A stretch of DNA of 64,000 nt from Acidimicrobiia bacterium (lineage in GTDB: Bacteria; Actinomycetota; Acidimicrobiia; IMCC26256; JAMXLJ01), in assembly GCA_024281095.1 (NCBI GenBank), contig JAMXLJ010000011.1:62001-126000 (forward strand), read 5' to 3'. The position numbers and the translations under genes are program-made. Within the stretch, counting starts at the first letter, position 1. Each line of letters opens with the position of its first letter. The notes below the pieces were generated by a model that saw only the letters and a program-made list of their open reading frames with translations, was not told the origin of the DNA and did no database searches. Shown piece by piece: positions 11,838 through 23,553 of the stretch.

Positions 11838-12935
11838 ATGAGCTTCGCGCTCGACGTCCTGGTCGTGTCGGCCGGCGCGCTTCTGGTCGTCGTCGTCCTC
11901 GATTCGGCGGTTCGCACGTTCGTGCTGCCGCGCGGCGTGCCGGTGCTGTATTCGCGGCTCGTCTTCACGCTGGTGCGCCGCGTCTTCAACATGGTCGCGA
12001 GCCGCATGGGCACGTACGAGGCGCGAGACCGGGTGATGGCGCTGTACGCGCCGTTCACGCTCGTGCTCCTCCCGTTCACCTGGCTCGTCCTCGTGGTGGG
12101 TGGGTACATGCTCATGTCTCGCGGCCTCGGTGTGAGCAGTTGGCGGACTGCGTTCGACGAGAGCGGCTCGTCGGTTCTCACGTTGGGTTTCGTGCACCCC
12201 GGTGACGTCCCCGGCATGGCGCTGGCCTTCAGCGAGGCTGCGATCGGGTTGTTCCTCCTCACGTTGCTCATCGCGTACCTGCCGACGATCTATTCGGCGT
12301 TCTCCCGCCGCGAGCTGCTCGTCGCGCACCTGGAGGCCCGGGCCGGCTCACCCCCTTCGGCCTTCGACCTGTTACGGCGTGCGCACCTCATCGAGAAGCT
12401 GCACGACCTCGACGACCTGTGGGTCTCGTGGCAGTTGTGGTTCGCGGAGCTCGAGGAGACCCACACGTCGCTCGGCGCGCTCGCGTTCTTCCGCTCGCCG
12501 AAGCCGGACCGGTCCTGGGTGACGGCGGCGGGAGCCGTGCTCGACGCGGCCGCTCTCGTCAACTCGACCATCGAGGGGCCGTGGCAGCCGATGGCCGCGT
12601 TGTGCGTGCGCTCGGGATTCACGGCGCTGCGATCGATCGCCGACTTCTTCGACATCGACAACGATCACGATCCCGCGCCGACCGACCGGATCTCGATCGC
12701 CCGCGACGAATGGGAGGACGTGTGCCGGCAGCTGACCGCGGTCGGTGTGCCGTTGAAAGAGGACCGCGATCAGGCGTGGCGCGACTTCGCGGGTTGGCGG
12801 GTGAACTACGACGTGGTCCTCATCAGGCTGGCCGGGCTCACGATGGCGCCGTACGCGATGTGGTCGTCGGACCGTTCGATCTACAGGGCAACGCCACTCA
12901 TCCCGAGGGGGAGCCGTCGTTGGAGGCGCGACTGA
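11838..12935 (+). CDS. Two-TM channel-like membrane protein with degenerate selectivity filter
   Basis: 365 aa. Hydrophobic segments lie at about 5-25, 68-93 and 126-150. Between the last two sits a pore-loop-like stretch (residues ~105-123) ending in TLGFVHPGD, which resembles the K+ channel filter region TxGYGD but has three extra residues and lacks the second filter glycine in place. The following helix (GLFLLTLLIAYLPTIYSAFS) is inner-helix-like. A soluble C-terminal half of ~200 residues begins at RRELLVAHLEARAG. The function is unknown; relation to the ion-channel superfamily is inference. GGAGG lies ~12 nt before the ATG. The 3' end overlaps the convergent deacetylase gene by 38 nt. Confidence 0.75.
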   Translation: MSFALDVLVVSAGALLVVVVLDSAVRTFVLPRGVPVLYSRLVFTLVRRVFNMVASRMGTYEARDRVMALYAPFTLVLLPFTWLVLVVGGYMLMSRGLGVSSWRTAFDESGSSVLTLGFVHPGDVPGMALAFSEAAIGLFLLTLLIAYLPTIYSAFSRRELLVAHLEARAGSPPSAFDLLRRAHLIEKLHDLDDLWVSWQLWFAELEETHTSLGALAFFRSPKPDRSWVTAAGAVLDAAALVNSTIEGPWQPMAALCVRSGFTALRSIADFFDIDNDHDPAPTDRISIARDEWEDVCRQLTAVGVPLKEDRDQAWRDFAGWRVNYDVVLIRLAGLTMAPYAMWSSDRSIYRATPLIPRGSRRWRRD

Positions 12936-13722
12936 GCGCCTCGAACAACGAGTGCTCGCGCGTCGCCGGCCGCGCGCCGTATCTGATGAACCATTCCTGG
13001 CCGAACGCGAGATCGAACGCGTCGTCGGGCAGCGAGAGGAAGAACGAGTTCTCCGGGATCTGGCTCGCGTGCGCCGCCATCGCGGCGCGCTTCTGCGTCG
13101 TGTGGGCCCGTACGTCGACGACCGTGGTGATCATCTCGGACGGCACGCCGATGTCGAACTCGTCCGGGTCGGGGGCGCCGTCGCCGACCGCGAGGTCCGT
13201 GGGACGGTTGCGCATCAGGTCGCGCAGATAGTCGCGGTCGACCGTCGCCTGGTAGATGAGCGGCGTCCCGGCGAGCCGCCCGGCCTGCACGCCGACGCGA
13301 TGGACCTGGACGTGGTCGGGATGACCGTATGTGCCCCGCTCGTCGTAGACGGTCAGCACGTCGGCCGCTTCCTCTTCGAGGATGCGCGCGAGTCTCGCCG
13401 CAGCCTCGTCGAGATCGGCGCCCCAGAACGAGCCCGGGCTGTCGTTCTCCGGTGTGCCCGCCATCCCGGAGTCGATGTATCCGAGGAACTCGACCCGCGC
13501 GACACCGAGAACCTGCGCGGCACGCCGGGTCTCCTCGACGCGACGCTCGGCGAGCGACTCGCCGTGGCCGAGGAACTCCGGCGCCACCTCGCCGTGCTCG
13601 CCGCGTGTCGCGACCACGAGCACGACCCGATGGCCGTCCGCCGCGGCCTGCGCCATCGTGCCGGCGGTGGCGATTGCTTCGTCGTCGGGATGAGCGTGGA
13701 AGGTGACGAGTGTGTACGGCAT
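12898..13722 (-). CDS. PIG-L/LmbE-family N-acetylglucosamine deacetylase (MshB/Mca-like)
   Basis: 274 aa. The N-terminal zinc motif HAHPDDEAIATAG (AHPDDE) and the later GHPDHVQVHRVG supply the metal ligands of the PIG-L fold. In actinomycetes this family includes MshB and Mca, which act in mycothiol synthesis and detoxification, and several deacetylases of natural-product sugars. Length and the opening fit MshB/Mca, but the exact substrate is not determined. It follows the TetR gene by 3 nt, so the two are probably cotranscribed. The C-terminal coding region overlaps the convergent channel-like gene. Confidence 0.85.
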   Translation of the reverse strand: MPYTLVTFHAHPDDEAIATAGTMAQAAADGHRVVLVVATRGEHGEVAPEFLGHGESLAERRVEETRRAAQVLGVARVEFLGYIDSGMAGTPENDSPGSFWGADLDEAAARLARILEEEAADVLTVYDERGTYGHPDHVQVHRVGVQAGRLAGTPLIYQATVDRDYLRDLMRNRPTDLAVGDGAPDPDEFDIGVPSEMITTVVDVRAHTTQKRAAMAAHASQIPENSFFLSLPDDAFDLAFGQEWFIRYGARPATREHSLFEALSRASNDGSPSG

Positions 13723-13725
13723 CGG

Positions 13726-14493
13726 TCAACGCCGCCTCGACGACACCGCCGTTCGCGCCGCGGTCGAGGCGGGGCGCGCGCCCGACCCCTCGCCGTTGAA
13801 GACGCCGCGGTGGATCGCCGACGCGAGCGTGTCGAGCATGTCGTCGCGGTCGACCTTCACCTGGCGCGACAGCACGTAGTAGTTGAATCGCTCCACCATC
13901 GCGACGACCGCGATCGCGGCGACGCCGGAGTTGATGCCGTCGGGCGGCGCGGTGCGGATGCGATCGGCGAGCACACGCGTGAACTCTCCGAGCAGGTCGT
14001 CGCCGAGCCGTCCGAATTCACTCGCGCCGGTCTCGGCCTCGGTCCACGCTCTGATCACCGGCCCGTAGTGGTCGTAGAGCTCCCTGAAGCGGTCGAGCCA
14101 CGCGCGCAGCGCCGCGTACCCGGCGCGGTCGGGCGCGATCTCGGGAAGATCCTCGGCGAGGTGCATCATCTGCTCGGCGACGTCGACCGCGAGCGCACGG
14201 AACAGGTCCTCCTTGTTGGAGAAGTACAGGTAGAACGTTCCGTGCGACGTGTCCGCGACCTTCACGATGTCGTCGACGCGGGCCGCGTGATAGCCGCGCT
14301 GGGCGAAGACCTGCGCGCCCGCGTCGAGCAGCTTTCGCATCGTGCGCTTGCCCCGGGCCCGCAGCTCGCGGTTCTGCGCCGGCCGCCCCGCCGGCGCGGC
14401 GGCGTTGTCGGCGGGCGGCGCTTCCCGGGGACGTCGGGAGCGCCCTCGGCCGCGCCGGCTCGGCTCGGGGCCGCGGGAGCTCGACCGGGCCAT
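13726..14493 (-). CDS. TetR-family transcriptional regulator
   Basis: 255 aa. A long Arg/Pro/Ala-rich N-terminal tail (~50 residues) precedes the HTH: LLDAGAQVFAQRGYHAARVD then DIVKVADTSHGTFYLYFSNK, a typical TetR recognition helix. The C-terminal ligand domain is not diagnostic. The ATG at 14493 lies 6 nt after TACCCT (14505-14500), with GTGACA 18 nt further upstream. A degenerate TGAC-type palindrome overlaps that -35 box, so the protein may repress itself and the divergent MaoC gene. It is a candidate, not proven, regulator of the TGAC-N6-GTCA sites in this window. Confidence 0.9.
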   Translation of the reverse strand: MARSSSRGPEPSRRGRGRSRRPREAPPADNAAAPAGRPAQNRELRARGKRTMRKLLDAGAQVFAQRGYHAARVDDIVKVADTSHGTFYLYFSNKEDLFRALAVDVAEQMMHLAEDLPEIAPDRAGYAALRAWLDRFRELYDHYGPVIRAWTEAETGASEFGRLGDDLLGEFTRVLADRIRTAPPDGINSGVAAIAVVAMVERFNYYVLSRQVKVDRDDMLDTLASAIHRGVFNGEGSGARPASTAARTAVSSRRR

Positions 14494-14499
14494 CGCTGC

Positions 14500-14529
14500 A
14501 GGGTAGAGCTTCTCCGACGCTCATGTCAC
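14500..14529 (-). promoter_or_regulatory. Promoter of the TetR gene with overlapping degenerate operator
   Basis: Minus strand: -35 GTGACA (14529-14524), 18-nt spacer, -10 TACCCT (14505-14500), then the ATG 6 nt later. The -35 forms one arm of TGAC-ATGAGC-GTCG, three quarters of the TGAC-N6-GTCA palindrome. At 18924 and 42201 the left arm likewise forms the -35 box. Confidence 0.45.
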
Positions 14530-14594
14530 CTTTTTCGATACGCTCACGATCCGCTCCAGAACGACGTGACGACCAGATCCGGGGGACTTCCGAC

Positions 14595-15038
14595 GTGACC
14601 ACGACTCCTGTGACCGCGCCGACGTTCGAGGGCCTGCAGGTGGGCGACGAGGCCCCGGCGCTCGTCGTCGAGAACCTCACGCGCACCAACTTCGTCCGGT
14701 ACGCGGGCGCGTCGGGTGACTTCAACCCGATGCATCACGACGACACGATCGCCGCGAAGGCGGGCAACCCGTCGGTGTTCGGCCACGGCATGCTCACCGC
14801 CGGGCTGATGGCGCGCGTCCTGAAGGACTGGTTCGGTCCCGAGGCGCTCACGCGGTACCAGGTGCGGTTCTCGAAACAGGTATGGCCCGGCGACACCCTC
14901 ACGTGTCGCGCGACGGTCACGGAGTTGCACGATGCCGGTGATCACGGGATCGTCGACTGCTCCATCTCGGTCACGAACCAGAACGGCGACACCTGCCTCA
15001 CCGGATCGGCCTCGGCGCGAGTGGAGAAGCAGAGCTGA
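14595..15038 (+). CDS. MaoC-like (R)-specific enoyl-CoA hydratase
   Basis: 147 aa hot-dog-fold protein. The hydratase motif FVRYAGASGDFNPMHHDD contains the catalytic Asp and His, followed by FGHGMLTAGLMARVL. These enzymes hydrate 2-enoyl-CoA to (3R)-hydroxyacyl-CoA. The next gene, overlapping by one base (TGATG), encodes a multifunctional-enzyme-2-type SDR, so the pair would carry out the hydration and oxidation steps of (R)-specific beta-oxidation. The GTG at 14595 follows GGGGGAC (14580-14586). It is divergent from the TetR gene. Confidence 0.88.
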   Translation: MTTTPVTAPTFEGLQVGDEAPALVVENLTRTNFVRYAGASGDFNPMHHDDTIAAKAGNPSVFGHGMLTAGLMARVLKDWFGPEALTRYQVRFSKQVWPGDTLTCRATVTELHDAGDHGIVDCSISVTNQNGDTCLTGSASARVEKQS

Positions 15039-15949
15039 TGCTGCTCGACAATCGGGTCGCGATCGTCACCGGGTCGGGCCGCGGCATCGGCCGCGAGTTC
15101 GCGTTGTGTCTCGCCCGCGAGGGTGCCGCGGTCGTCGTCAACGACGTCGGCGTGTCGCTCGACGGGCGCGGCACCGACGAGGATCCCGCGGTGCAGGTGT
15201 GCAAGGAGATCGAGGCGTCCGGCGGCAAGGCCGTGCCCAACTACGACTCGGTCACGGACTTCGAGGGCGCGGCGCGCATCGTGCAGACCGCGGTCGAGTC
15301 GTTCGGAAAGCTCGACATCCTCGTGAACAACGCCGGCATCGTGCGCGACCGCACGCTCGTGAAGATGACCGAGGAAGACTTCGACGCCGTCGTCGCGGTG
15401 CACCTCAAGGGCACGTTCAACTGCGCACGCCACGCCGCGCCGGTCATGCGCGACGCGGGGTACGGCCGCATCGTCAACATCACGTCGTCGGCGGGCCTGC
15501 GCGGCAACTTCGGCCAGACGAACTACGGCGCGGCGAAAGCCGGGATCATGGGCATGACGTTCATCTGGGCCATGGAGCTCGGTCGCTACGGCATCACCGT
15601 GAATGCGGTTGCCCCCGCGGGCGCGACGCGCATGACGGCGTCGCTCTTCGAGCGCAGCGGTACCGAGCCGCCGCCGGAGCAGAACCCGGCGCTCAACGCG
15701 CCGCTCGTCGCGTACCTGGCGTCCGAGCAGGCGGGCCACGTGAACGGACAGATCCTCGGCCGCAGCGACTACGCGTACACGATCTTCCAGACGCCCCGGC
15801 AGATCGCGTCCATGTGGCGCGACGGCGGCTGGGACGCCGCAGGTGTCGCGGCGAACTTCGACACCGTGCTCGGTCAGCACCTGCAGCACGTCGGCATGGT
15901 GATGCCGAAGGGCATGGAGCACGCGGGCGGGCCCGAGAACAAGAGCTGA
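15038..15949 (+). CDS. SDR oxidoreductase, (3R)-hydroxyacyl-CoA dehydrogenase (MFE-2/HSD17B4) type
   Basis: 303 aa. The Rossmann motif TGSGRGIGREFA, the NNAG motif (ILVNNAGIVRDRTL) and the catalytic YGAAKAG (YxxxK) are present. The insertion after NDVGVSLDGRGTDED, with GGKAVPNYDSV, is typical of the dehydrogenase domain of peroxisomal multifunctional enzyme 2 and its bacterial relatives. It probably oxidises (3R)-hydroxyacyl-CoA with NAD. The start shares a base with the MaoC stop. A close paralogue lies at 45341-46258. Confidence 0.88.
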   Translation: MLLDNRVAIVTGSGRGIGREFALCLAREGAAVVVNDVGVSLDGRGTDEDPAVQVCKEIEASGGKAVPNYDSVTDFEGAARIVQTAVESFGKLDILVNNAGIVRDRTLVKMTEEDFDAVVAVHLKGTFNCARHAAPVMRDAGYGRIVNITSSAGLRGNFGQTNYGAAKAGIMGMTFIWAMELGRYGITVNAVAPAGATRMTASLFERSGTEPPPEQNPALNAPLVAYLASEQAGHVNGQILGRSDYAYTIFQTPRQIASMWRDGGWDAAGVAANFDTVLGQHLQHVGMVMPKGMEHAGGPENKS

Positions 15950-15967: not shown

Positions 15968-16606
15968 ATGCGCGCATATCCGCTCGGCGTCGTCGACGTC
16001 GTCTTCTGGCCCGATCCCCCCGAAGTCTGCGCGCGCCGGGCGCGTGATCTGGGCTTCGAGCACATCGACGTGCTCGTCGACGTCGATGCGGCGTCGCTCG
16101 TGTTGCCGGTCGGCTGCCCCACGGCGTTCCCGAAACCGGTGCCGGGATGGTGTGCGACACCGGCACCACGCGATCGTGAGGGGATGTGGGACCGGACGGT
16201 TGCGTGGTTCCGGGCCGCTCCGGGCGCGCTGCTCGAGCCGTGGGCCGGCGCGACCGTCAACTCCCTCGACAAGGCCCGGGCGATGATGGACGCGGTGCCG
16301 GGCCTGCGCCTGCTCGTCGACACCGGCCACGTCGCCGACTGGGGTGGCGACCCGCTCGAGCTGCTCCCGTACGCCGGCCACGTGCAGTTGCGGCAGGGCA
16401 AACCCGGCTCGGCGCAGGTCCATCCCGACGACCCTTCGGGCGTCGTCGACTTCGCCGCGGTCCTGCGCCGGCTCGACGACCTCGGATACGACGGCCGGTT
16501 GAGCGTCGAGTACTTCGACCTGCCCGACGAGGGATGGCCTCTCGACGACCCCGTGGGCTTCGCCCTGGCCCTGGCAGAGCAGGTCCGGCCGCTGCTCCGG
16601 GCGTGA
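15968..16606 (+). CDS. Xylose isomerase-like TIM-barrel protein
   Basis: 212 aa, short for the AP-endonuclease-2/sugar isomerase superfamily (usually ~270). Visible blocks are CARRARDLGFEHIDVLVDVD, LLVDTGHVADWGGDPLELLP and LGYDGRLSVEYFD; the Asp-Thr-Gly-His and C-terminal Glu are the typical metal ligands. It may act as an isomerase or epimerase on a sugar-like or hydroxy acid substrate; no specific reaction can be assigned. The gene follows the SDR by 18 nt and precedes the P450. Confidence 0.7.
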   Translation: MRAYPLGVVDVVFWPDPPEVCARRARDLGFEHIDVLVDVDAASLVLPVGCPTAFPKPVPGWCATPAPRDREGMWDRTVAWFRAAPGALLEPWAGATVNSLDKARAMMDAVPGLRLLVDTGHVADWGGDPLELLPYAGHVQLRQGKPGSAQVHPDDPSGVVDFAAVLRRLDDLGYDGRLSVEYFDLPDEGWPLDDPVGFALALAEQVRPLLRA

Positions 16607-17973: not shown

Positions 17974-18846
17974 TCAAGGGGTGGGGGCGGGCCAGGGATG
18001 CAGCGGCAGGCCCGGTGCGGGCATGCCTTCCCACGCGACGATGTTTCCCGGCACCGCGTCGGTCGCGAACAAGGTGCAGCCGTCGGTGCCGCCGAAGCAG
18101 CAGTTGGTCGTGAGCCCGTCGCCGTCGATCGGCAGGAATTCGACCTCGCGGCCGTCGGGCTCGACCACCCGGACGCCGTGCTCGGTGGTGGACGCGACGT
18201 AGAACCGCCCGTCAACATCGACGCAGAACCCATCGCCGCCACCCGGCCCGAGTTGCTCGACGATCCATTCGCGGGAGCCGTCGGGCAGCAGGCGCATCAG
18301 GCCGCGTCCTTCGACGACGACCAACGTGCCGGCCGGTTCGCGCGCGATGCCGTTGCAGTACACGAATCCGTCGGCGACGAGCTGCAGCGCGCCGTCGGCG
18401 TGCAGCGCCCACACCCGGCCGGTCTTCCGCTCGGAGAGGAAGTTGTACGGATCCGTGAAGAAGACGGTCCCGGCCTCGTCACACACGAGATCGTTCGGCG
18501 CCTGAAAGCCGTCGGCCACGAGGTAGTCCACGTCGCCCGCGGGTGACACGCGTTGCAGGCCCGGTGCGGCGGGCCGGTACGGCGCGTCCGCGAACTCGCC
18601 GACACGCGCACCCATCTTCGAGAAGTCGAGGCCGCCGTTCTGCGTGACGACGAATCCGCCGTCGGACGCGGGATACGCCGCGTTCGGGCCGCCTCCCGTG
18701 TCGGCGATGCGTTCCACCCGGCCCGTGGCCGGCGTGACGCGGAACAGCGCGCCGTCGCACACGCTGGTCGCGACGACCGTGCCGTCGTCGCACCAGACCG
18801 GGCCCTCGCCGAACCGCACACCGCTCGCGATCACTTCAGGGATCAC
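17974..18846 (-). CDS. SMP-30/gluconolactonase-family beta-propeller hydrolase
   Basis: 290 aa. The six-bladed SMP-30/LRE fold is indicated by FGEGPVWCDDG, GGPNAAYPASDGGFVVTQNG, FQAPNDLVCDEAGTVFFTDP and YCNGIAREP; the Glu, Asn and Asp residues in these blocks are the usual divalent-metal ligands. Members hydrolyse sugar lactones or other lactones. The GTG at 18846 follows GAGGGAG. The gene converges with the P450 and diverges from the selenoprotein operon. The lactone substrate is unknown. Confidence 0.85.
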   Translation of the reverse strand: MIPEVIASGVRFGEGPVWCDDGTVVATSVCDGALFRVTPATGRVERIADTGGGPNAAYPASDGGFVVTQNGGLDFSKMGARVGEFADAPYRPAAPGLQRVSPAGDVDYLVADGFQAPNDLVCDEAGTVFFTDPYNFLSERKTGRVWALHADGALQLVADGFVYCNGIAREPAGTLVVVEGRGLMRLLPDGSREWIVEQLGPGGGDGFCVDVDGRFYVASTTEHGVRVVEPDGREVEFLPIDGDGLTTNCCFGGTDGCTLFATDAVPGNIVAWEGMPAPGLPLHPWPAPTP

Positions 18847-18955: not shown

Positions 18956-18984
18956 ACGAGCACCCGCGACAGAGGAGACCGTGT

Positions 18985-19536
18985 ATGGCGCGCATCAAGG
19001 TGCTCGATCCCACCGCGCCGCCGCCCGACGTCGACGACGACCCCGGACCCGACGCCGGCCCGCTGCGGGGTCGTCTCGTCGGTATCCGTTTCGACAGCGC
19101 GTGGAAGAGCTTCGAGTGGGTGATCGACGAATGGGTGCCCCGGCTCGAGGCCTCGGGCGCGCGTGTGCGGCTCTGGGAAGCCGGGAACCGCATCGGCGAC
19201 GAGGGCGAGCGCACCTTCAAGGAGCTCGACGACTTCGCGACCGACGTCGACATCGCGCTCGTCGGCCTCGGCAACTGAGGCAGCTGCACCTCTTGGAGCG
19301 TCCACGACACGGTCGAGGTCGCGAACAAGGGGAAGACGGCGGTCGTCGTCGTGACTGCGGAGTTCGAGAGTTTGGCCCACACCATGGCCGCGAACGCGGG
19401 CCGTGCGGGACTGCGCGTCCACGTCCTTCCGTACCCGCTCGAGTCGCGTCCGGAGTCCGAGGTCCGCGGCATCGCGCGCGAGCACTGGCCCCGGCTCGTC
19501 GCCACACTGGGAGCAACCGGTGACGCAACCGAGTGA
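18985..19536 (+). CDS. UGSC-motif selenoprotein (selenocysteine at in-frame TGA 19276-19278)
   Basis: 183 residues if TGA 19276-19278 is read as selenocysteine (Sec98). The upstream part (MARIKVLDPTAPPPDVDDD to VDIALVGLGN) and the downstream part (GSCTSWSVHDTVEVANKGK to the TGA at 19534-19536) are in the same frame with no other stop, giving Sec98-Gly-Ser-Cys101. This matches the UGSC family, whose Cys and Sec members carry (C/U)GSC, presumably a redox-active pair. A hairpin with a G-led apical loop starts about 10 nt after the TGA, as bacterial SECIS elements do. AGAGGAG lies 8 nt before the ATG. Downstream genes overlap or abut. The biochemical role is unknown. A truncated pseudogene is the alternative, but the intact motif and downstream codons argue against it. 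Confidence 0.85.
19288..19313 (+). promoter_or_regulatory. Putative bacterial SECIS hairpin
   Basis: Stem: ACC (19288-19290) with GGT (19311-19313), TC (19291-19292) with GA (19306-19307), and TGGA (19294-19297) with TCCA (19301-19304). A T/C mismatch and a three-base bulge (CAC) interrupt it. The apical loop is GCG (19298-19300), beginning with G, 19 nt after the TGA. Position and loop fit the bacterial SECIS pattern; the fold was drawn by eye. Confidence 0.5.
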
Positions 19537-20620
19537 GCTCGCGAACCGGGTCGACTGCGGGCCCGAGGGATGTCAGATCGACTGGCTCGCCTCACCCCGG
19601 GTCGAGGTCGACGACGACCCGGTCGCGTTCCAGAAGCTCGCCACCGACGCCGGCTGGGGTGACGGCCTCCCGCTCATTCCGCCGCGCGAAGCGCTCGTGC
19701 GCGAATTCGTCGCCGCGTCGCGGCGGTTTCCCGACGAGCTGCTGGCAGAGCTGCCACCGCGCAACGGACGGTGCACCGTCGAGAAGGTCGCGGTCAACGC
19801 GGTGATGGCCGGCGCGCCGGCAGCCGCGATGCCGCTGCTGTGCGCGGCGATCGAAGCGATGGTCGACCCGGTGTTCAACCTGTTCGCGCTCAACACCACG
19901 ACGTCGTGCGTCGTACCCGGTGTCTTCGTCAACGGGCCCGCGCGCCACGAGCTCGGGATCCCGTTCAGTGCGGGGTGCTTCGGCGGTGAGGCCGGGCCCG
20001 GCCCCGCGATCGGACGTGCGTTACGCCTCGTGATGCGCAACGTCGGCGGTCAAGTGGTGGGTATCAGCTCGAAGAGTGTCTTCGGTCAGCCCGGTCGTGT
20101 CACGGGCATCGTCGTGGGGGAGTGGGAGGAGCGTTCGCCGTGGGCACCGCTCGCGAAGCGGCGGGGCGTGGCGTCAGGAGCCGATGCGCTCACGGTGCAC
20201 GGATGCACGGGCACGATCGACGTCGCCGATATCGTCGCCGACAACGGAGTCGACTTGCTGGCCGTCATCGGCAAGTCGCTCGCGTTCGCGGGAACGAACG
20301 CGTTCATCGGAGCACACCACGGCGCCGAGATCATGGTCGCGATCGCGCCCCCGTGGGCGACGCTCATCGCGAGCGCGTACCCCGACGTCGAGACGGTGCA
20401 GGAGATGCTGTGGGCCCACGCGGCGCTGCCCGTGGGGTGGTGGCCGGAGAAGCACCAGCGAGCCGCACACGACAACGGTCGGGTCGACGGCCAAGGGATG
20501 GTGCACCTCGTCGAGTCGCCCGAGCACATGCTCGTGATGGTCTGCGGCGGCCTCGGGAATCTCCATGCTCTCGCGCTCCACAGCTTCGGTCCGACCCGCG
20601 CGGTCACACGCGCGTTCTGA
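19520..20620 (+). CDS. Conserved protein of unknown function, partner of the UGSC selenoprotein
   Basis: 366 aa from a GTG at 19520 with GGGAG 6 nt upstream, overlapping the selenoprotein 3' end by 17 nt. I do not recognise a named domain. It is soluble and rich in Gly/Ala, with several cysteines in conserved-looking contexts: VDCGPEGCQIDW near the N-terminus, NGRCTVEKVA, FSAGCFGGEAGPG, VHGCTGTIDVADI and a C-terminal MVCGGLGNLHALALHSFGPT. The tight overlap implies translational coupling and probably a shared complex or pathway with the Sec protein. The cysteines could exchange electrons with the Sec-Cys pair; this is inference. The next gene starts directly after its stop. Confidence 0.8.
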   Translation: MTQPSELANRVDCGPEGCQIDWLASPRVEVDDDPVAFQKLATDAGWGDGLPLIPPREALVREFVAASRRFPDELLAELPPRNGRCTVEKVAVNAVMAGAPAAAMPLLCAAIEAMVDPVFNLFALNTTTSCVVPGVFVNGPARHELGIPFSAGCFGGEAGPGPAIGRALRLVMRNVGGQVVGISSKSVFGQPGRVTGIVVGEWEERSPWAPLAKRRGVASGADALTVHGCTGTIDVADIVADNGVDLLAVIGKSLAFAGTNAFIGAHHGAEIMVAIAPPWATLIASAYPDVETVQEMLWAHAALPVGWWPEKHQRAAHDNGRVDGQGMVHLVESPEHMLVMVCGGLGNLHALALHSFGPTRAVTRAF

Positions 20621-21703
20621 GTGGGCGTGGCACAACCTCCGGGCGCGGTAGTAATCGGCACGGGATTCGGCTCGCGGGTGCACGTGCCTGCCCTGCGCGC
20701 GGCCGGGTTTCGTGTCGAGGCGCTCGTCGGAACCGACCCGGACCGCACCGCGCGCCGGGCCCGACGCCTCGACGTGCCCCGCGCGCTCACGTCGCTCGAA
20801 GCCGCGCTCGACATCGCGGGGGTCGAGGCCGTCACCGTCGCCACGCCACCGCACACGCACGCCCGTCTCGCCATCCATGCGCTGCGCGCCGGACGGCACG
20901 TGGTGTGCGAGAAGCCGTTCGCCCTCGACGTGGCCGAGGCGGCCGCGATGCTCGAGGAGGCCGAGGCGGCCGGGGTGACCCATCTCGTCGGCCACGAGTT
21001 CCGTTGGGCGACCGAACGCGCCGTCCTCGGTCGCGCCATCGACGAGGGCCTCATCGGTGAGCCCCGGTACGTGTCGCTCGTGCAGTACGTGCCCCTCGTC
21101 GCCGACGCCGACGCGCCGATGCCGGCGTGGTGGTTCGAACCTGGCGCGGGCGGCGGCTGGCTCGGCGCGTCCGGTTCGCACGTCGTCGACCAGGTCCGTA
21201 CGTGGCTCGGTGAATTCCACTCGTTGAGCGCCACGTTGAATCAGGTGTCGGCGCGCGAAGCGGCGGTCGAGGATTCGTTCACGGTGCGCTTTCGACTCGT
21301 GTCGGGTGCCGACGGCGTCATGGCCCAGACCGCAGGTGCATGGGGGGAACCGGTCGGGATGACCCGCGTGTCCGGAACCAAGGGCACGTTGTGGATCGAC
21401 GGCTCCACCGTGTGGTTCGCCGACCGCCTCGGCGCCGAGCGGGTCCCGGTGCCGCCGGAGCTCGCGATGGCGGACGTCGACGTGCCGGCGGGCGATGCGC
21501 GGCACCGCTTCACGCATCTCGAGCTCGGCCCGTACACCCGCTTGTGCGAGGCCCTGCGCGCCGGCGTCGAGGGTCGACCGATCGTGTCGACGGTGCCGGT
21601 GCCGACGTTCGCCGACGGCTTCGAGTGCATGCGGGTGCTCGACGCGGTGCGCGCGTCCGCATCCGCGGGGGGCGAGCTCGTCACGATCGACCGCCCCGCC
21701 TGA
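20621..21703 (+). CDS. Gfo/Idh/MocA-family oxidoreductase
   Basis: 360 aa. An N-terminal Rossmann domain opens with VVIGTGFGSRVHVPALRAAG, followed by the family motif CEKPFALDVAEA (EKP) with the catalytic Lys, and HEFRWATERAV. The C-terminal alpha/beta domain has WFEPGAGGGWLGASGSHVVD. Members use NAD(P) to oxidise sugars, inositols or related hydroxy compounds, or to reduce carbonyls. The GTG abuts the preceding stop with no gap, so it belongs to the selenoprotein operon. The substrate is unknown. Confidence 0.88.
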   Translation: MGVAQPPGAVVIGTGFGSRVHVPALRAAGFRVEALVGTDPDRTARRARRLDVPRALTSLEAALDIAGVEAVTVATPPHTHARLAIHALRAGRHVVCEKPFALDVAEAAAMLEEAEAAGVTHLVGHEFRWATERAVLGRAIDEGLIGEPRYVSLVQYVPLVADADAPMPAWWFEPGAGGGWLGASGSHVVDQVRTWLGEFHSLSATLNQVSAREAAVEDSFTVRFRLVSGADGVMAQTAGAWGEPVGMTRVSGTKGTLWIDGSTVWFADRLGAERVPVPPELAMADVDVPAGDARHRFTHLELGPYTRLCEALRAGVEGRPIVSTVPVPTFADGFECMRVLDAVRASASAGGELVTIDRPA

Positions 21704-21721: not shown

Positions 21722-22327
21722 TTACCAGCCGCGGCCGAACCGGTCGCGGTGCATCTTCGTGTCGACCGGCTCCCGCCGGGGCGGCCGCAGCTCGCGCGCC
21801 GGCCAGCCGAGGGGCACGACCGCGAACGGCTGGATGTGATCGGGGAGCTGCAACATCTCGCGCAGCTCCGCGTCGAAACCCATGGTCAGGGTCGTGAGCG
21901 CGGATCCGAGCCCGAGCGCTCCCGCGGCCAGCAGCAGGTTCTGCACCGCAGGAAACACCGACGCCGCGAGCACGGCCGGGAGGCAGAACGACGAGTCGCC
22001 GCAGACGACCACGAGCACCGGGGCTGCCGCGACACCGCCAGTGGCGCCGCGGTCGACGTCGGCCAAGAGCCGGTCCGGGAGACGGCCGCGCTCGAAGTCG
22101 CGCCCGCCTGCCTCCCACGCTCGGCGGGTCAGGTCGCCGATGCGGGCCCGCAGCGCGGCGTCGCGCACGACGACGAACTGCCACGGTTGGCTGTTCTCGG
22201 CGCTCGGTGCGTACGTCGCGGCCTCGAGCACCTGCTCCACGAGCGCGTCGTCGAGCGGCTCGTCACGAAAGCTGCGGTGCGCGCGTTGGCGTCGCACCAC
22301 ATCGAAGAACGGCGTGCCGGGATTCAC
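21722..22327 (-). CDS. Nitroreductase-family flavoprotein
   Basis: 201 aa FMN-dependent fold. RRQRAHRSFRDEPLDDALVE, ATYAPSAENSQPWQFVVV and the C-terminal ALGLGSALTTLTMG and VVPLGWPA are typical of the family, which reduces nitro compounds, quinones or enoates, or carries out dehydrogenations. The GTG at 22327 overlaps the upstream gene's stop (GTGA). The frame remains open upstream, but that part lies within the neighbour. It converges with the Gfo/Idh gene, 18 nt away. Confidence 0.88.
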   Translation of the reverse strand: MNPGTPFFDVVRRQRAHRSFRDEPLDDALVEQVLEAATYAPSAENSQPWQFVVVRDAALRARIGDLTRRAWEAGGRDFERGRLPDRLLADVDRGATGGVAAAPVLVVVCGDSSFCLPAVLAASVFPAVQNLLLAAGALGLGSALTTLTMGFDAELREMLQLPDHIQPFAVVPLGWPARELRPPRREPVDTKMHRDRFGRGW

Positions 22328-22971
22328 GGTTCGCGCGAGCCGAGCAACCGGAACGTGTTGACGTAGTCGATGCGCAGCTCGGGGGTGTTGGCCCACTGTT
22401 TCCACTCGACGGTGTCGTCACCGCCGAGCAGTTTCGTGACGAGCGGCGTCATCGACTTGAACACGGCTTCGGGATCGTCCTGGTCGATCTCGTAGAAGTG
22501 CATGAACCGCGGCGTCGCGCCCGGCTGCACGTTCTCGTACGGCGTGATCATCGAGTACCCCGGCACCGATACCTCTGCGATGAAGCGGATGTGCACGAAG
22601 TCGCCCCAGTCGCGCAGCGCCTGCGCATCGCGCTCATGGCCCGGGCTGATCAACACCAACGACAGCCCGATGGTGGGACGCCCGGTGAGGCGCCCCTGCC
22701 CAGGTCGTGGGTAGTGGCGGAAATGATGCGCGCGCACGTCGCTCGGGACGTCGGGCGCACGGAACCCTTCGTCCACCTCGTACACCGCCAAGTGATCGAA
22801 CTCGGGCAGCCTCCGAGGAAGATCGGGACGGTCGCGGAAGACGTTGCGCCACCACGTGGCCCGGCTCACGCCGCTGCGGCCGAGGACCTCGGGGACGCGC
22901 GCGCCGACGTACTCCTCGACGTCGCGATCGGTCATCTCGAGGTAGAGACCCGGCGTGATGCGGTCCTCCAT
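22324..22971 (-). CDS. Conserved protein of unknown function (possible dimeric alpha/beta-barrel)
   Basis: 215 aa, no signal peptide or membrane segment. A stretch FVHIRFIAEVSVPGYSMITP and the later ATPRFMHFYEIDQDDPEAVF has the alternating pattern and 'PRFMHFYEID' type strand seen in ferredoxin-like dimeric alpha/beta-barrel proteins (EthD-like and relatives); this is a guess from pattern only. The ATG at 22971 lies 7 nt after TAAGCT (22984-22979), so the message is probably leaderless. It is translationally coupled to the nitroreductase gene, and the two may act on the same compound. Confidence 0.7.
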   Translation of the reverse strand: MEDRITPGLYLEMTDRDVEEYVGARVPEVLGRSGVSRATWWRNVFRDRPDLPRRLPEFDHLAVYEVDEGFRAPDVPSDVRAHHFRHYPRPGQGRLTGRPTIGLSLVLISPGHERDAQALRDWGDFVHIRFIAEVSVPGYSMITPYENVQPGATPRFMHFYEIDQDDPEAVFKSMTPLVTKLLGGDDTVEWKQWANTPELRIDYVNTFRLLGSREP

Positions 22972-23064
22972 CGCCCGGAGCTTACGGCCAGTCTCCGAGA
23001 GAGGGTCACGTCACCGTCGGTGATGCGCGCGGTGCGATACGTCGCGGAGTACGTTCGGCACGCA

Positions 23065-23553
23065 ATGGATCCGGGTGGTGCAACTTCGCGTGACGCGGGC
23101 TCGAGCGGCGCGGGCTCGGCGCGCGCGCACATTTCCGTCGTGGTGGTCGATGATCAGGAGATGGTCGCCAAGGCGCTCATGGACGCGCTGGCCGACGAGC
23201 CGGACGTCGAGGTCCTCGTCTGGAAGGGCAGACGGGTCGACGCGCTCGTCGACGCGATCCGCGCCGCCGGTGCGTTCCGCTCCGCCGGTGGGTTCAGGCC
23301 GGGCGGCTCGATCTCCCGCCAGGCGGTAGGGCGTGATCTCACGGGCCGGGAGCGGGAAGTACTCGGCTTGCTGGCCGAGGGCCGGTCGACGGACGAGATC
23401 GTCGAGCGGCTCGTGCTCAGCCCGCATACTGTTCGCAACCACATCCGGAGTGTCCTCGCCAAACTCGGGGCCCACTCCCGCTTGGAGGCGGTCTCCATCG
23501 CGGTCCGCGCGGGGGTCGTCCGGTTCGTGCCCCGACCCCCAGAGCGCGCATGA
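23065..23553 (+). CDS. LuxR-family regulator with internally truncated receiver domain
   Basis: 162 aa. The N-terminal receiver start HISVVVVDDQEMVAKALMDA retains the acidic pair (Asp29-Asp30). The sequence then jumps from beta-2 (VEVLVW) to what looks like the receiver's last helix (KGRRVDALVDAIRAAG); the middle, including the phospho-acceptor Asp, is missing. The LuxR HTH is intact: LTGREREVLGLLAEGRSTDE then RLVLSPHTVRNHIRSVLAKL. It should bind DNA but cannot be phosphorylated normally. TACGTT ends 9 nt before the ATG. No cognate kinase is adjacent; a GAF kinase lies at 61563. Confidence 0.85.
   Translation: MDPGGATSRDAGSSGAGSARAHISVVVVDDQEMVAKALMDALADEPDVEVLVWKGRRVDALVDAIRAAGAFRSAGGFRPGGSISRQAVGRDLTGREREVLGLLAEGRSTDEIVERLVLSPHTVRNHIRSVLAKLGAHSRLEAVSIAVRAGVVRFVPRPPERA

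Follow-up and report, generated by a model that had tools for sequence, protein, structure and literature searches.

A UGSC-family selenoprotein gene of an Acidimicrobiia bacterium with a conserved partner gene and evidence for kinship of its selenocysteine half with GrdB/PrdB

The window analysed here, a stretch of 64,000 nucleotides from an Acidimicrobiia bacterium, carries a gene of the UGSC family whose reading frame runs through an in-frame TGA (Table 1). Our preferred reading, to which we give a probability of about 0.83, is that the TGA is decoded as selenocysteine (Sec) in a flavodoxin-like UGSC protein, which would form a two-part selenoenzyme with the product of the adjoining gene, has a Sec domain related to that of GrdB/PrdB (the Sec subunits of glycine and D-proline reductase) and serves a catabolic gene cluster. 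Comparison shows the selenoprotein identity, the partnership and the kinship of the Sec domain, each at the strength given below.

Table 1. Position of the UGSC gene, its recoding signals and its neighbours in the window.
Feature	Position	Strand	Basis or remark
TetR-family regulator	13726..14493	-	conserved neighbour
MaoC-like dehydratase	14523..15038	+	conserved neighbour
Short-chain dehydrogenase (SDR)	15038..15949	+	conserved neighbour
Xylose-isomerase-like TIM barrel protein	15968..16606	+	conserved neighbour
Cytochrome P450	16680..17936	+	
SMP-30/gluconolactonase-like protein	17974..18846	-	
AGAGGAGA, ribosome-site-like stretch	18971..18978	+	sequence; 6 nt 5' of ATG 18985
UGSC-family selenoprotein gene, 183 residues with Sec98	18985..19536	+	sequence, PF24696 match, homologues
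TGA read as selenocysteine (Sec98), first of Sec-Gly-Ser-Cys	19276..19278	+	Cys codon there in 24 homologues
Candidate bacterial SECIS upper hairpin UC-U-UGGA(GCG)UCCA-C-GA	19291..19307	+	about 12-13 nt past TGA; one U.C mismatch; -3.3 kcal/mol
Partner gene, 366 aa, start GTG 19520	19520..20620	+	no Pfam/NCBIfam family; adjoins or fused to UGSC in 94/97 loci
Gfo/Idh/MocA oxidoreductase	20621..21703	+	directly 3' of partner gene
Nitroreductase-family protein	21722..22405	-	conserved neighbour

The frame that starts at ATG 18985 is interrupted solely by the TGA and ends at the stop codon TGA 19534-19536, giving 183 codons with Sec counted as one. The sequence-only reading had proposed this frame, the Sec-Gly-Ser-Cys motif, a ribosome site and a coupling to the downstream gene, and all four are borne out: the end at 19536 includes the stop codon, the codons TGA GGC AGC TGC (19276-19287) spell the motif with Gly-Ser-Cys after the TGA, a ribosome-site-like stretch precedes the ATG, and the last 17 nt of the UGSC gene are shared with the next gene, which starts at GTG 19520. 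The read-through product matched the Pfam model PF24696 (UGSC) with 105.6 bits against a cut-off of 25, over its whole length (residues 6-176; profile positions 2-171 of 172). The NCBIfam equivalog model NF041046 gave 69.6 bits, below its cut-off of 125, so this model would not name the product, which belongs to the GLGN-Sec subfamily and differs in this respect from the family as modelled. An E-value of 5e-36, roughly equivalent to that cut-off, was reached by 34 of 89 UGSC relatives. The product is a member of the UGSC family, which had been described by 2008 at the latest (Zhang and Gladyshev 2008, PMC2398784), and has in common with the family the whole-length Pfam match, the Sec-Gly-Ser-Cys motif and the exchange of Sec and Cys.

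The proposed decoding presupposed selA, selB, tRNA-Sec and selD elsewhere in the genome. The window's own assembly (4.39 Mb, 98% complete) contains the full set: selA (contig C112, 11437-12741, 475 bits), selB starting 44 nt past it (12786-14555, 304 bits, or 332 with a C-terminal piece), selD (contig C30, 411 bits) and a tRNA-Sec (contig C44, 69 bits) with anticodon UCA according to ARAGORN. The same genome has four UGSC genes in all, and in each of the other three a single TGA is found, again at this position. In 61 genomes (this one and its relatives) we found 97 UGSC genes above the family cut-off, in 45 genomes. The codon aligned with the TGA is TGA in 73 of them, spread over 35 genomes, and a Cys codon in 24; no other codon occurs. 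The family thus has Cys and Sec members, as the sequence-only reading had stated, and its call for Cys at the aligned position of homologues is answered by a column of Sec and Cys only. Neither of the two outcomes that it had named as refuting, a genome devoid of Sec machinery and homologues lacking Cys or Sec at this position, was obtained. The presence of selA follows the TGA copies: 34 of the 35 genomes with TGA copies carry it, compared to 2 of 10 with only Cys copies and 4 of 16 devoid of UGSC, and the lone TGA-copy genome in which selA was not found is 79% complete. The difference between TGA-copy and Cys-only genomes gives a Fisher p of 1.8e-6, in which related genomes are not independent.

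In the UGSC comparisons dS exceeded dN, and dN after the TGA was lower than before it in eight of nine comparisons, the ninth being about equal (0.526 against 0.508); judged from these rates, protein-level selection persists past the TGA. With the Sec column excluded from tree building, at least four changes between Sec and Cys are required. Given the whole-length Pfam match, the three paralogues, the 97 homologues and the dN pattern, a chance origin of the Sec-Gly-Ser-Cys frame is excluded at the level of sequence comparison. A pseudogene or sequencing error, with the TGA a true stop and the 3' part a remnant, would fit a frame that a gene caller would split and the weak hairpin of the window's own gene, but it is scarcely credible in view of the same-codon TGA in the 73 homologues and in all four copies of the own genome, the Cys in the remaining homologues and a dN that does not rise past the TGA. 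Decoding of the TGA as Trp under an altered code such as table 4, or its general read-through, would leave the frame open as well; this deserves as little credence, since the members that lack TGA always have Cys and never Trp at the aligned residue, the complete Sec machinery of the genome tracks TGA-UGSC across genomes, and the Trp at motif position +6 is encoded by TGG in the window's group. From this comparison we infer that UGA 19276-19278 is almost certainly decoded as selenocysteine.

The hairpin behind the TGA is imperfect in the window gene, with 6 of 8 pairs, and local folding there is no better than that of shuffled sequence. In the Sec genes of the ALAD (29 genes), GSAD (7) and GLAK (3) subfamilies, a stem at +12 to +30 past the TGA has 8 of 8 pairs and a GUG loop in 39 of 39; a perfect 8-bp stem is thus present in 39 of the 73 Sec homologues. 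The Cys UGSC genes keep 5.3 of the 8 pairs at the same positions. In GLGN (23 genes), the subfamily of the window gene, the stem is less strict, with a mean of 6.9 pairs and a loop that is mostly GCG or GUG. For the Ser in the loop, all 43 Sec genes of ALAD, GSAD and GFGG use AGT and the four Cys genes of GSAD use AGC; elsewhere in Sec genes AGT makes up 20 of 456 Ser codons (4.4%). The pairing together with the AGT bias points to selection on the RNA as well as on the protein, with the caveat that the hairpin pairs follow partly from conserved codons. The pairs were counted at fixed positions, since in sequence so rich in GC the minimum free energy of 45-nt windows (mean -17.0 for Sec and -14.9 for Cys genes) was not informative. 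An Rfam scan of the UGSC loci for a SECIS-like family returned nothing relevant. In the sub-clade of the window the pair +15/+27 is lost (C.C, C.U or U.C) and the TGA is kept in every gene; besides the window hairpin, this mismatch is found in seven sister genes (L107, L120, L123, L129, L132, L139 and L146).

A homologue of the partner gene adjoins UGSC in the same orientation, upstream or downstream depending on the subfamily, or is fused to it, in 94 of the 97 loci, and the numbers of UGSC and partner genes per genome are nearly identical. Two of these loci are fusions (L105 and L109). Three loci lack an adjacent partner; one of these borders on a contig end, and its genome (G050) has a partner copy where another contig begins. 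The pairing also holds in 15 loci of named genomes retrieved by a scan with a single protein, whose carriers include Deltaproteobacteria, a betaproteobacterium, Chloroflexi and Myxococcales; in three of them (L192, L193 and L196) UGSC and partner occupy one frame past the TGA. We take UGSC and its partner to be, with high probability, a functional unit, as judged from this near-constant association.

The five fusions are distributed across several phyla, and one further locus (L195) has two UGSC-partner pairs in tandem. Two Cys-type UGSC genes of the related genomes G014 and G024 (L134 and L130) have no recognisable partner within 5.5 kb; at L134 a 508-aa unclustered gene comes after UGSC.

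None of the Pfam and NCBIfam models fits any of 83 partner sequences, which have no invariant Cys; their invariant residues include D48, G49, P51, T128, R166, G189, E201 and P277. A PDB sequence search with the single partner protein and with its profile gave nothing meaningful, and the Foldseek matches to fumarase and a cyclic amide hydrolase, at a TM-score of about 0.25, are uninformative. Homology of the partner to GrdB, GrdE or UGSC was rejected, the hhalign probability being 0.2% against GrdE-type genes located before grdB. A fusion of UGSC with a domain called 'Unknown_1' is mentioned in the 2008 ocean survey (PMC2398784); going by that paper's description alone, the partner may be this domain.

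AlphaFold2, run with 89 sequences, modelled UGSC with a pLDDT of 94 as five strands alternating with helices (E-H-E-H-E-H-E-H-E-H), in which Sec98 lies between the strand 90-96 and the helix 99-113. The best Foldseek matches of this model in the PDB include a flavodiiron protein, NQO1, MdaB and WrbA at TM-scores of about 0.45-0.55, together with other Rossmann-type proteins, and no thioredoxin-fold protein is among the 50 best. A PDB sequence search with the single UGSC protein and with the profile yielded nothing significant, with a weak flavodoxin match. The fold is therefore predicted to be flavodoxin-like and not thioredoxin-like, in contrast to the thioredoxin-like fold proposed for the family in the 2008 survey (PMC2398784). 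UGSC would share this fold with the flavodoxin domain of flavodiiron proteins, MdaB, NQO1 and WrbA, from which it differs by an identity of 11-18%, its Sec/Cys active site and the lack of a sign of FMN binding in this analysis.

The proposal that goes with the published fold, in PMC2398784, is a thiol oxidoreductase or antioxidant of the thioredoxin fold, whose neighbour would be merely co-transcribed. The UxxC motif is typical of thioredoxin-like selenoproteins and agrees with this published guess. We consider it improbable, given the fold of the model, which resembles several flavodoxin-like proteins instead, a partner that is near-obligate and sometimes fused, and the sequence kinship with GrdB/PrdB.

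This kinship was detected by a single hhalign comparison of UGSC with the Sec domain of GrdB/PrdB, using GrdB/PrdB-type sequences from the same phylum that had been extended beyond the Sec codon. The probability was 93% (E 3.1e-7), with Sec on Sec and Cys on Cys, and the segments in register are a strand, Sec-x-x-Cys, a helix, an E..GIPTV strand and a PxG region. In the controls, 44 other families of the same loci, Rossmann-type dehydrogenases included, gave at most 3.2%, 60 column-permuted alignments at most 3.9% and the reversed alignment 1.1%; one further control cluster was set aside, being itself UGSC. The result speaks for homology between the Sec half of UGSC and the Sec domain of GrdB/PrdB. 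The Pfam model GRDB (PF07355) does not match the window protein at E-values up to 10, is absent from the 25 families listed for 89 UGSC members and has no match in the own genome. No statement of a kinship between UGSC and GrdB/PrdB was found in the literature searched, as far as the texts were accessible.

As proposed here for UGSC, GrdB and PrdB each act with a second protein. The kinship is limited to the Sec half, the N-terminal half of UGSC being different. A motif UxxCxxC has been reported for GrdB, whereas UGSC has UxxC with no third Cys. The partner is related to neither GrdB nor GrdE and does not correspond to the pyruvoyl-type partner subunit (GrdE/PrdA), so the chemistry of UGSC may differ. 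UGSC, by contrast, occurs together with a P450 in a catabolic cluster that looks aerobic.

The Pfam GRDB model stops just short of the Sec residue. Short PrdB-like proteins with a TGA (Sec) in a U-x-x-C motif occur in many Actinomycetota (L161-L181), and one of them (L175) reads UPIU, with two TGA codons.

In the closest relatives the conserved set comprises TetR, MaoC, SDR, TIM-barrel isomerase, P450, SMP-30, UGSC, partner, Gfo/Idh/MocA (or a 2-hydroxyacid dehydrogenase) and nitroreductase genes. The TetR, MaoC, isomerase, nitroreductase, SMP-30, Gfo/Idh and hydroxyacid dehydrogenase genes are each present in 4-8 of the 16 sub-clade loci and absent from the remaining 81; many of the 16 loci are truncated, and the conservation of only about half is partly due to short contigs. 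The gene order differs among the UGSC subfamilies, and a peptide-type ABC transporter is encoded further upstream in the window. As judged from its gene content, the window's UGSC copy looks to sit in a catabolic cluster, which argues for a pathway enzyme over a general antioxidant.

Beyond this set, a LuxR-type frame (22207-23553, +) overlaps a conserved gene on the opposite strand (22324-22971, -) that has no assigned family and is present in nine relatives; the LuxR start probably lies further downstream.

For the two-part selenoenzyme we propose the following scheme, whose catalytic steps are drawn by analogy with GrdB/PrdB, where the Sec motif acts on the substrate jointly with other subunits (PMC13188914). 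SelA, SelB, SelD and tRNA-Sec of this genome would decode the UGA, probably assisted by the downstream hairpin. The product would fold as an alpha/beta domain of flavodoxin type, in which the Sec-x-x-Cys pair is placed where the third strand ends in the model, and would associate with the product of 19520-20620, the subunit that presumably holds the substrate. The selenolate of Sec98 would attack or reduce the partner-bound substrate, Cys101 would resolve the selenenyl intermediate, and a thioredoxin-like donor would recharge the Sec98/Cys101 pair. The enzyme would serve the catabolic cluster with its SMP-30, Gfo/Idh, SDR, MaoC, P450 and nitroreductase genes and the transporter upstream.

The reductive, GrdB/PrdB-like chemistry is a tentative part of this scheme. 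Its main rival keeps the same pair of proteins and gives Sec98 a non-reductive role, the selenolate serving as the nucleophile of a lyase, hydrolase or group-transfer reaction with a partner-bound substrate of a catabolic pathway. A partner with no invariant Cys but with invariant D48, T128, R166 and E201, its weak structural resemblance to hydro-lyases and cyclic amide hydrolases, and the catabolic neighbour genes would agree with such a role, which we nevertheless regard as unlikely: Cys101 is invariant and suggests a redox pair, and the TM-scores of the partner matches are low.

UGSC ranks with the most common selenoprotein families of aquatic metagenomes: the ocean survey of 2008 counted 255 Sec forms (PMC2398784), and in a 2021 survey the family made up 8.2% of the selenoprotein genes (PMC9402790). 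No function is given for it in the accessible parts of the literature searched. The cut-off of NF041046 misses whole Sec subfamilies, and such genes would consequently be split or called pseudogenes. This annotation gap, the partner, the GrdB/PrdB kinship and the corrected fold are what the present analysis adds to the known family; the four paralogues, the partner, the kinship and an own hairpin weaker than that of most relatives all go beyond the sequence-only reading of the window. A concrete hypothesis, a two-subunit selenoenzyme acting on a specific small-molecule substrate, follows from the almost one-to-one occurrence of the partner, the GrdB/PrdB kinship and the conservation of the catabolic neighbours, and the partner and the kinship make the function of UGSC testable. 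Possibly, and we put it forward with reserve, UGSC and its partner make up a third, widespread branch among the selenium reductases of the GrdB/PrdB class, built of two subunits with a new, non-pyruvoyl substrate subunit, which would be put to a (probably aerobic) catabolic use and whose several paralogues per genome would act on different substrates.
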